DNA of 64,000 nt from Thermococcus nautili (GTDB lineage: Archaea; Methanobacteriota_B; Thermococci; Thermococcales; Thermococcaceae), in the NCBI RefSeq assembly GCF_000585495.1, contig NZ_CP007264.1, positions 930,001-994,000 of the forward strand. Direction: 5' to 3'. The notes beneath the pieces were generated by a model, which was not told the DNA's origin, ran no database searches, and was given only the letters and a program-made list of their open reading frames with translations. Below, in pieces: positions 9,479-13,400 of the stretch (position 1 is the stretch's first letter; every line of letters starts with the position of its first letter). Both the position numbers and the translations under genes were made by a program.

Positions 9479-9946
9479 ATGAGGAGGAAGCTTGGGGTTT
9501 TGGTTTTTCTGGCGGTATTTCTGATGATGTACCTCTATCCACTCTCGATAGTCCCGCTCCTGCTCCTCGCGAGGGAGTGGGAGGAATTCCAGGAGGAGTG
9601 GAGAAAGTCGGCCCTCTTAATAGGGCTCTCAATACCGCTCTATGGGGCGAAAATTGCCCTCGGCATCTCCGGCTGGGCCAAGACCCTTGGAATAACGCCG
9701 GTTCACGTTTCGCCGGCAGTCTGGTGGGGTGTTTACCTAACCTTCACAGCGCTCCAAACGCTGGCGGTTTACTACGTCTACCGCGTTGGAAAGGGGCTGG
9801 GCGACTACGCGAGAACCGGTGGACTCGTAATGCTGATTGCCGTCCCGCTCCACCTGCTCAGCCTCAAGCTCTACTTCATCCTCACGTGGACCGGGTTGCT
9901 CCTGTTCCTGCTCGGTCTTGAAAAGAGAAAGGAGGTGATAGGATGA
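9479..9946 (+). CDS. Hypothetical membrane protein, 155 aa
   Basis: Starts at ATG 9479 behind GAGGTGGT. Four hydrophobic segments (about 7-28, 45-62, 80-98, 112-148) indicate an integral membrane protein. No catalytic motif or known family is recognised. Its stop overlaps the start of the next gene (ATGA at 9943-9946), so the pair is translationally coupled. The T-run after cdc48 (9441-9446) separates it from that gene. Confidence 0.72.
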   Translation: MRRKLGVLVFLAVFLMMYLYPLSIVPLLLLAREWEEFQEEWRKSALLIGLSIPLYGAKIALGISGWAKTLGITPVHVSPAVWWGVYLTFTALQTLAVYYVYRVGKGLGDYARTGGLVMLIAVPLHLLSLKLYFILTWTGLLLFLLGLEKRKEVIG

Positions 9947-10188
9947 TTTACGGAGTCCTGCTCAGCATACCCGAGAAGTTCGTGACCAAGTACGAGGACG
10001 AGGTCAGGAAGACCATCGGCTACGGCATAGCGAGGGGCGACATAATAAGCTTCACCGAGGCCCGCTACAAGGGCGACGTCGCCTTCGTGATGCTCGCCCG
10101 CTCCAACAGGGCCGCGGAGAGGGTTGTAAACGAGCTCAAGGAACTGCCGATAAACGTCAAGGTCATTGAGATTGAGGGCGAGAGCTGA
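9943..10188 (+). CDS. Hypothetical protein, 81 aa
   Basis: Start ATG 9943 overlaps the upstream stop and has GGAGGTGAT in front of it. Small soluble alpha/beta protein with short strands (YGVLLSI, VAFVMLA, VKVIEIE) and a helix between them; family not recognised. Its 3' half and downstream terminator-like ACTTTTTATTG are duplicated in decayed form at 11282-11409, see that entry. Confidence 0.72.
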   Translation: MIYGVLLSIPEKFVTKYEDEVRKTIGYGIARGDIISFTEARYKGDVAFVMLARSNRAAERVVNELKELPINVKVIEIEGES

Positions 10189-10304
10189 TTTGCTCCCCAC
10201 TTTTTATTGCGCTCGTTTTCTTTTTAGGCAACCGGGAAAGAGAACGGGAAAAGTTCCGGCCAGGCCGCGCGGGGCATGAAGGACAGCAGGTTCAACAGGC
10301 TTGA

Positions 10305-10454
10305 TTAAGCAACCCACTCGAGCTCGTAGCCCCTCGCACGGAGCTTCACCATCTCTTCCCTCGCTATTCTCTCGGCCTTCTTTATGTCGTTGGTGACGAC
10401 TATCTTCTCCTTGGGCAGGGTGTTGTTCATATAGTAGACAATCCTCACGAGCAT
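10305..10454 (-). CDS. Small protein, 49 aa (paralog of 10633-10782)
   Basis: ATG 10454, GGTGGT five bases upstream, TAA at 10305. Predicted beta-beta-alpha-beta: strands LVRIVYYM and KIVVTND, a charged helix beginning KKAERIAREEM, a final strand YELEWVA. The neighbouring minus-strand gene at 10633-10782 has exactly the same length, the same secondary-structure order and shared residues (IV at strand 2, AxRIAxxE in the helix, YELE at the end). Their leaders also share GACAAACCCC and GTGATAC. I recognise no family. TATA candidate: the symmetric GTTTTTAAAAC near 10499-10509. Confidence 0.65.
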   Translation of the reverse strand: MLVRIVYYMNNTLPKEKIVVTNDIKKAERIAREEMVKLRARGYELEWVA

Positions 10455-10535
10455 AACACCACCCCCAATGTATCACTGGTGGTGAGGGGTTTGTCGGAGG
10501 TTTTAAAAACATTATTGACCATAGCAATACATCAA

Positions 10536-10563
10536 CGAACAGAATAGTGCGAACAGAATAGTA
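10536..10563. repeat. 14-bp tandem repeat
   Basis: CGAACAGAATAGTG (10536-10549) is followed directly by CGAACAGAATAGTA (10550-10563), 13 of 14 bases identical. It lies between the two 49-residue genes, upstream of the promoter of the 10305-10454 gene. The surrounding 10511-10632 stretch is AT-rich and holds no gene. Confidence 0.6.
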
Positions 10564-10632
10564 CATTGCAGAACAATTATAGACACGAGAACCAATGTGC
10601 TGAAGCATGCAAGGAAGTTAAGAAAGGGGAGG

Positions 10633-10782
10633 TCACTCAAGCTTCTCAAGCTCGTAAACCACAGCGTCCTTCCGCCTGAGCTCCTGAACCGCGATTCTCC
10701 TTGCCTCGTCGGCCGTTTCGGCTTCAAACACTATCGTCTTCCCGCTCTCCTCTCCACCGTGGAGGGTGAGGGCCCACCTCAT
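10633..10782 (-). CDS. Small protein, 49 aa (paralog of 10305-10454)
   Basis: ATG 10782 with GCGGTGAT just upstream, TGA at 10633. Begins MRWALTLHGGEESGKTIVF, continues with a helix containing ADEARRIAVQEL and ends VVYELEKLE, the same beta-beta-alpha-beta plan as its 49-residue neighbour. Lacks cysteines and membrane segments, so probably a small cytoplasmic domain. Function unknown. It is divergent from the JAMM gene and both use one symmetric TATA sequence at 10812-10826. Confidence 0.65.
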   Translation of the reverse strand: MRWALTLHGGEESGKTIVFEAETADEARRIAVQELRRKDAVVYELEKLE

Positions 10783-10811
10783 AGTATCACCGCGGGGTTT
10801 GTCATATTGCC

Positions 10812-10826
10812 AAACTTTATAAGTTT
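10812..10826. promoter_or_regulatory. Symmetric TATA shared by divergent genes
   Basis: AAACTTTATAAGTTT is almost perfectly self-complementary and sits 28 bases before the JAMM ATG (10847) and 37 bases before the ATG of the 49-residue gene (10782). One TATA can therefore serve both directions: a near-leaderless JAMM mRNA and a short-leader small-protein mRNA. TTTGTCA occurs on both sides (10798-10804 and 10839-10845). Confidence 0.6.
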
Positions 10827-10846: not shown

Positions 10847-11251
10847 ATGAGGCTCATTATAGGGCGAGAGATTATCGAAATGCTCATCGAGATGACCAAA
10901 AACGCCAACGTTGAGGTCTGCGGCTTCCTCTTGGGCCGGAGAGATGGAGAGGGGGTTCTGGTTTCGGAAGTGAGGAAAGTCAGGAACAGGCTCAACTCCC
11001 CGAGCGCCTTCGAGATGGAGCCTGTGGAGATGGTCAGGGTCATTGACGAGGCCGAGGAGAGGGGCCTCGAAGTCGTCGGAATCTTCCACTCCCACCTCAA
11101 ATGCCCACCAGTGCCGAGCGAGCGCGACTTGGAGGGAATGAGGAACTGGCCGGTTGTGTGGCTCATCGTCACACCGGAAGGGGAAGTCAGGGCGTGGGTT
11201 CTGAGAGAGGGAGAAGTGGAGGAAGTTGAAATCGTGGATGAGAGAAGATAA
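10847..11251 (+). CDS. JAMM/MPN+ metalloprotease (desampylase-like)
   Basis: 134 residues, a single JAB1/MPN domain. All JAMM zinc-site elements are present: Glu23 in VEVCGFLLG, His81 and His83 in FHSH, Ser91 and Asp94 in PSERD, spaced H-x-H-x7-S-x2-D. Size and motif match the archaeal JAMM1 enzymes that cleave isopeptide-linked ubiquitin-like SAMPs and release SAMP for sulfur transfer. Substrate is inferred from the family; no SAMP, E1 or MoaE gene is adjacent. Expression is probably from the shared promoter at 10812-10826 with almost no leader. Confidence 0.88.
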   Translation: MRLIIGREIIEMLIEMTKNANVEVCGFLLGRRDGEGVLVSEVRKVRNRLNSPSAFEMEPVEMVRVIDEAEERGLEVVGIFHSHLKCPPVPSERDLEGMRNWPVVWLIVTPEGEVRAWVLREGEVEEVEIVDERR

Positions 11252-11281: not shown

Positions 11282-11409
11282 GCCTTCGTGATGCTCGCCT
11301 GCTCCAACAGGGCCGCGGGGATAATGGCGAGCGAATCAAAGAACTTTCGATAACCGTTAAGGTCATCGAAATTGCGGACGAGAGCTGATTTACTCCCTAC
11401 TTTTTATTG
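11282..11409 (+). pseudogene. Decayed partial copy of the 9943-10188 gene
   Basis: This stretch aligns with 10081-10209 (3' half of the 81-residue gene, its TGA and the following ACTTTTTATTG) with long identical blocks such as CTCCAACAGGGCCGCG and GAGAGCTGATT. It lacks a start region, has lost one net base in the middle, and its frame reaches TAA early (GAACTTTCGATAA). So it is a non-functional remnant of a duplication. Its terminator-like end is intact and could still stop transcripts from the JAMM gene. Confidence 0.8.
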
Positions 11410-13383: not shown

Positions 13384-13400
13384 TATCACTATCAGTGATA
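13384..13400. promoter_or_regulatory. TGM element (TrmBL1/Tgr site)
   Basis: TATCAC-TATCA-GTGATA is an exact match to the Thermococcales glycolytic motif TATCAC-N5-GTGATA bound by TrmBL1 (P. furiosus) or Tgr (T. kodakarensis). Flanking G and C extend the arms to eight pairs with a three-base centre. A plus-strand TATA-like AAAAGTTTATTAA lies about 25 bases upstream (near 13347-13359). The next plus gene (13522) has its own GGATATAAAC (about 13483-13492). See findings. Confidence 0.75.

Follow-up and report, generated by a model that had tools for sequence, protein, structure and literature searches.

A conserved 49-residue protein with a putative TrmBL1/Tgr operator, and its distant paralogue, in the Thermococcales

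Two 49-codon genes beside a JAMM gene

The window analyzed here is a 64,000-nucleotide stretch of DNA (positions 930001-994000 of the 1.98-Mb genome of Thermococcus nautili). Its minus strand carries two adjacent genes of exactly 49 codons, ORF1 and ORF2, next to a plus-strand gene for a JAMM/JAB-domain protein (Table 1), an arrangement recognized in an earlier note made from the letters alone. That note took 49 codons to be too short for common gene callers, which is doubtful given that the default minimum of Prodigal is about 90 bases.

Table 1. Features of the ORF1-ORF2 locus, in window coordinates
Feature	Position	Strand	Description	Basis
ORF1	10305..10454	-	49 aa, MLVRIVYYMNNTLPKEKIVVTNDIKKAERIAREEMVKLRARGYELEWVA; beta-beta-alpha-beta microprotein	relatives, dN/dS, AlphaFold2
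Shine-Dalgarno of ORF1	10457..10466	-	G-rich, GGGGTGGTG type	sequence; G-rich block kept in leaders
TGM-type operator of ORF1 (putative)	10471..10487	-	CCTCACCACCAGTGATA in this genome; centered on predicted transcription start	leader counts, column conservation
Predicted TATA of ORF1	10500..10509	-	TTTTTAAAAC	sequence; TATA-like block kept across ORF1 leaders
ORF2	10633..10782	-	49 aa, MRWALTLHGGEESGKTIVFEAETADEARRIAVQELRRKDAVVYELEKLE; ORF1 paralogue	relatives, dN/dS, AlphaFold2
Shine-Dalgarno of ORF2	10786..10791	-	GGTGAT; the "GTGATAC" of ORF2 in the earlier note	sequence
Near-symmetric TATA in ORF2/JAMM gap	10815..10825	.	suits a short-leader ORF2 transcript and a leaderless JAMM transcript	sequence
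JAMM/JAB-domain protein	10847..11251	+	134 aa; neighbor, membership in the system putative	Pfam Prok-JAB 5.5e-19; NCBIfam desampylase model, 76 bits (cut-off, 130)

Both ORFs belong to families of conserved proteins. In profile searches of six-frame translated genomes, relatives of ORF1 were found in 45 of the 61 genomes of genus g1, the GTDB genus of the window, and in three further genera of its family (g11, g13, and g14), with no match in genus g12 and absences from some complete genomes. Relatives of ORF2 were found in 53 of the 61 genus-g1 genomes and in no other genus of the phylum; those with names in databases are all Thermococcus. Neither ORF has relatives in the viral contigs searched or in one other archaeal phylum searched (23 genomes), and the main text of the transcription-start papers on T. 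kodakarensis and T. onnurineus holds no usable mention of either. Median dN/dS is 0.175 for ORF1 and 0.145 for ORF2, third codon positions are the most variable in both families, and lengths are near-constant (48 to 49 residues within the genus). Homologues with synonymous-biased change are therefore present, and both ORFs stand as real genes under purifying selection.

AlphaFold2 monomer models agree with the proposed beta-beta-alpha-beta layout (pLDDT, 94.1 for ORF1 and 92.5 for ORF2). Conserved residues in the family alignments are MLxR, YY, P, E, and A/A/A/E/E for ORF1 and KWxLTL, GG, G, and A/A/E/A/EL for ORF2. Neither protein falls in a Pfam, NCBIfam, or PHROG family (the best PHROG match is no better than E 0.08); a sequence search of the PDB returned short helix matches alone (FtsH and others), and Foldseek comparison of the models with the PDB gave no match with E < 0.2.

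The surrounding region has features of its own. A conserved 81-aa gene with no confident family match lies 3′ of an AAA ATPase gene (window 9943-10188). A 129-bp direct repeat (window 10081-10209 and 11282-11409, 83% identical) is composed of the 3′ end of this 81-aa gene and a T-rich tail and recurs beyond JAMM, beside a gene for a PrsW-like membrane protease; the second copy is found in this genome alone among the loci compared.

Distant paralogues with different leaders

The proposal that ORF1 and ORF2 are tandem paralogues holds, at some evolutionary distance. An hhalign comparison of the two families aligned residues 15-48 with a probability of 92% (P = 5.9e-7). In six-frame searches of whole genomes, the ORF2 profile retrieved ORF1 as its sole second match in five genomes (E, 2.5e-4 to 9e-3), and the ORF1 profile retrieved ORF2 in three (E, 0.004 to 0.007). 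Each family forms its own clan in a tree. Full-length identity is just ∼18 to 27% and similarity is concentrated in residues 15-48, so that convergence of a helix motif and strand layout in adjacent but unrelated small proteins has to be considered. Against such convergence, the partner ORF was the sole other subthreshold match in all eight of these genomes, and the two proteins are alike in length, strand, adjacency, and predicted fold. We therefore regard non-homology as quite improbable, and distant paralogy as supported by the profile comparisons. A search for a third copy in this genome with the ORF1 profile gave ORF1, ORF2 (E 0.195), and a weak match within an 869-aa frame.

ORF1 is probably the older form, given its wider distribution and its JAMM neighbor in other genera; in the genus ancestor, ORF2 would then have arisen or have been placed into the gap separating ORF1 from JAMM. 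In two genomes (G011 and G021; loci L104, L105, L107, and L108) the two ORFs lie far apart, with ORF1 still near a Cdc48-type AAA ATPase gene but ORF2 toward a MobB gene, and the pair is thus separable without loss.

The earlier note also held that promoter and gene had been duplicated as one unit, citing two leader elements common to both genes, GACAAACCCC and GTGATAC. Both elements do lie upstream of both genes in the window, but they do not amount to a shared, duplicated promoter. Among the 29 genomes holding both ORF1 and ORF2, GACAAACCCC occurs in both leaders in only one, the present genome. In the other genomes the longest words common to the two leaders are mostly at the level of shuffled sequence (median, 7), and the longest other common word is a TATA word. 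Across relatives the coding sequences show homology and the leaders do not, and a palindrome described below belongs to the leaders of ORF1. GTGATAC itself has different roles in the two leaders. That of ORF2 contains the Shine-Dalgarno sequence GGTGAT, in agreement with the GGDGRD Shine-Dalgarno motif of T. onnurineus (PMC5316973), and abuts the ATG; that of ORF1 is the right half of the palindrome and a putative operator half-site. It lies 16 nt 5′ of the ATG, and ORF1 has its own Shine-Dalgarno sequence closer to the start codon.

Two other interpretations of the ORF1 leader were examined and rejected: an upstream GTG start inside the motif, given the good Shine-Dalgarno sequence just 5′ of the conserved ATG, and an RNA hairpin, given that the predicted transcription start lies near the dyad. 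Many genomes also share an GTTCATTGATG-like element, located tens of bases 5′ of the ORF1 TATA.

A glycolytic-type palindrome upstream of ORF1

The Thermococcales Glycolytic Motif (TGM), TATCAC-N5-GTGATA, is bound by TrmBL1 in P. furiosus and by Tgr in T. kodakarensis (PMC4706686, PMC4158304); where it covers the start site, downstream of BRE/TATA, it confers repression that inducing sugars release (PMC4158304). Of 47 ORF1 leaders, 42 carry this motif with no more than two mismatches (13 exact, 19 with one mismatch, 10 with two), compared with ∼0.2 of 47 in shuffled leaders, a count drawn from related genomes and thus not one of 42 independent events. The remaining five exceed two mismatches, and three of them (L103, L118, and L122) have no recognizable motif. 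Among 42 ORF2 leaders a single one comes within two mismatches and none is better, and the core TCACN5GTGA is present in 34 of 47 ORF1 leaders versus 0 of 42 ORF2 leaders. The ORF1 motif lies mostly 13 to 19 nt from the ATG, and its half-site columns are conserved at 0.60 to 1.00, compared with ∼0.4 to 0.6 for most flanking positions outside the TATA and Shine-Dalgarno blocks.

In the present genome (G000) the ORF1 site has 10 of the 12 consensus bases, with CCTCAC as its left half. By itself this site does not reach significance (the window has 2 matches, versus 0.87 expected), and the case therefore rests on its conservation and on the kinds of genes that the other genomic sites adjoin. From the ORF1 TATA at ∼10505, transcription is predicted to start at ∼10478, and the dyad of the palindrome is at 10479; the site is thus downstream of the TATA and over the predicted start, the placement of the repressed class.

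Sites of this kind are rare and mostly adjoin genes of sugar metabolism. Exact TGMs number 0 to 5 per genome in the genus, and a reversed control gave 0 in all but three genomes. Five genomes examined in detail hold 15, two of which belong to ORF1 and one to the site at window 13384; the remainder lie by genes for GAPN, the glucose-6-phosphate isomerase/ADP-glucokinase pair, GH57, and alpha-amylase and also adjoin the sugar phosphate mutase/mannose-1-phosphate guanylyltransferase pair. The present genome has 13 sites of the form TCACN5GTGATA (reversed control, 0), nine of which adjoin glycolytic or starch genes and one of which is that of ORF1. The nine neighbors are ADP-glucokinase, ADP-phosphofructokinase, aldolase, phosphoglycerate mutase, enolase, GAPN (assigned by an aldehyde dehydrogenase domain and likeness to a G011 gene), POR delta (assigned by a ferredoxin domain and adjoining porB), a GH57 glucanotransferase, and a maltose-forming amylase. 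The other three sites are at window 13384, at a DUF4870 gene, and at the start of a KaiC/V4R gene. Targets found by ChIP-seq in P. furiosus include many of the same enzyme kinds, among them POR delta, whose promoter is bound and repressed by TrmBL1 there (PMC4706686). The left half-site of POR delta in the present genome, ACTCAC, is of the same grade as the CCTCAC of ORF1. The genome also encodes a PF11495 regulator (E 6e-54, 344-aa frame), a putative counterpart of TK1769/PF0124.

Taken together, the conservation, the placement, and the genomic company of the site make it likely that TrmBL1 binds the ORF1 leader, and almost as likely that ORF1 is induced by sugar. We know of no report that names ORF1 as a TrmBL1/Tgr target.

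The site at window 13384-13400 is an exact TGM that follows a plus-strand TATA-like stretch at a distance of ∼27 nt, between a small LSM-like gene (a label without a confident family) and a 275-aa gene. It recurs in place at five other loci (L090, L140, L137, L138, and L139), and in L138 and L139 it is directly followed by an ORF of ∼35 residues (MMPEAVVDGSVAL...RPRWPD). It may mark a second sugar-controlled small gene or a short RNA.

Competing explanations and a proposed role

The gene neighborhood suggests another function, put forward in the earlier note: ORF1 and ORF2 would be accessories of the JAMM protease in SAMP or protein turnover, with a shared symmetric TATA coupling the expression of ORF2 and JAMM. 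A near-symmetric TATA does lie in the gap between their closely placed divergent promoters, JAMM adjoins ORF1 or ORF2 within a few hundred bases in most genomes, and the ORF1-JAMM linkage is frequent, extending as divergent neighbors to the three other genera with ORF1. Mapping beyond adjacency, however, showed that presence and absence are uncoupled: four genomes have both ORFs and no JAMM match (G015, G019, G030, and G094), two retain ORF2 but likewise lack a JAMM match (G024 and G029), six have JAMM elsewhere on the genome (G011, G021, G036, G009, G003, and G028), and JAMM is present without either ORF in most of genus g12. The TATA upstream of ORF2 is kept in relatives even where JAMM is gone. 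No aligned member of either family has a C-terminal Gly-Gly, all endings being of the ELEWVA or ELEKLE type, and the TGM points toward sugar metabolism instead. The link to JAMM is positional, with no support beyond neighborhood, and an accessory role in SAMP or protein turnover appears improbable.

A second alternative accepts the palindrome but assigns it to some regulator other than TrmBL1/Tgr, perhaps a further member of the TrmB family, or to action at the RNA level, which would place ORF1 outside the glycolytic regulon. Some genomes do carry several TrmB-family genes. The motif is, however, identical to the TGM consensus and its other genomic sites are mostly of known TrmBL1 target kinds; as for the RNA level, a start near the dyad, predicted from the TATA-to-start spacing (PMC5316973), would leave only half of the palindrome transcribed. 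We consider this explanation unlikely. That the two proteins form an antitoxin-like or phage-inhibitor-like pair is far less credible still. Their models do resemble phage T4/RB69 Dmd and T7 Gp2 in the PDB (TM 0.73 to 0.76), each a small three-stranded sheet with a helix, but so small a fold (three strands, 49 aa) finds matches among many proteins that are unrelated, all Foldseek E values exceed 0.2 (those for Dmd and Gp2 exceed 1), and no sequence similarity to these proteins was seen. The viral contigs and PHROG searches described above likewise gave no relative, and no toxin-like partner was seen.

The explanation we favor, and consider probable overall, is that ORF1 is a TrmBL1/Tgr-controlled small protein of growth on sugar and that ORF2 is a diverged copy without the switch. 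In the absence of sugar, TrmBL1/Tgr would occupy the TGM over the ORF1 start site and repress the gene; inducers derived from maltodextrin would release it from the promoter, and ORF1 would then be made during growth on carbohydrate alongside the glycolytic and amylase genes. ORF2, which lies upstream of ORF1, has its own TATA and Shine-Dalgarno sequence and no TGM, and the copies have therefore split in regulation, such that ORF2 may provide a related activity under other control. With 49 residues and no catalytic-looking conserved residues, ORF1 would most plausibly bind a partner, as a noncatalytic binder or adaptor for some enzyme or machine that growth on sugar requires; a role as a protein-binding regulator is nevertheless a tentative assignment. 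More speculative is the idea that sugar-induced ORF1 acts directly on central carbon metabolism to tune one of its steps, as a hitherto unrecognized posttranslational arm of the TrmBL1/Tgr glycolytic regulon, and that ORF2 is its constitutive partner or competitor.

Archaea have small proteins that regulate metabolic enzymes, such as sP26, which acts with glutamine synthetase in Methanosarcina mazei. ORF1 would share with sP26-type regulators its small size and a predicted condition-dependent promoter, a likeness proposed at the level of mode of action. As in the repressed glycolytic genes of the TrmBL1/Tgr regulon, the palindrome of ORF1 lies over the predicted start, and the motif sits at the usual enzyme genes of this genome. 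ORF1 differs from established members in its size of 49 aa, in having no known protein family, in a membership that is predicted from sequence, and in being absent from the g12 genomes, probably Pyrococcus.

This locus illustrates that a conspicuous neighbor, here JAMM, can point the wrong way when the promoter does not. With ORF1, the predicted glycolytic regulon of the Thermococcales, which is among the best studied regulons in archaea, would gain a conserved small protein that belongs to no known family. ORF1 offers a concrete, testable condition (growth on maltodextrin versus peptide) in a genetically tractable genus, with ORF2, the paralogue without the motif, as a natural control.
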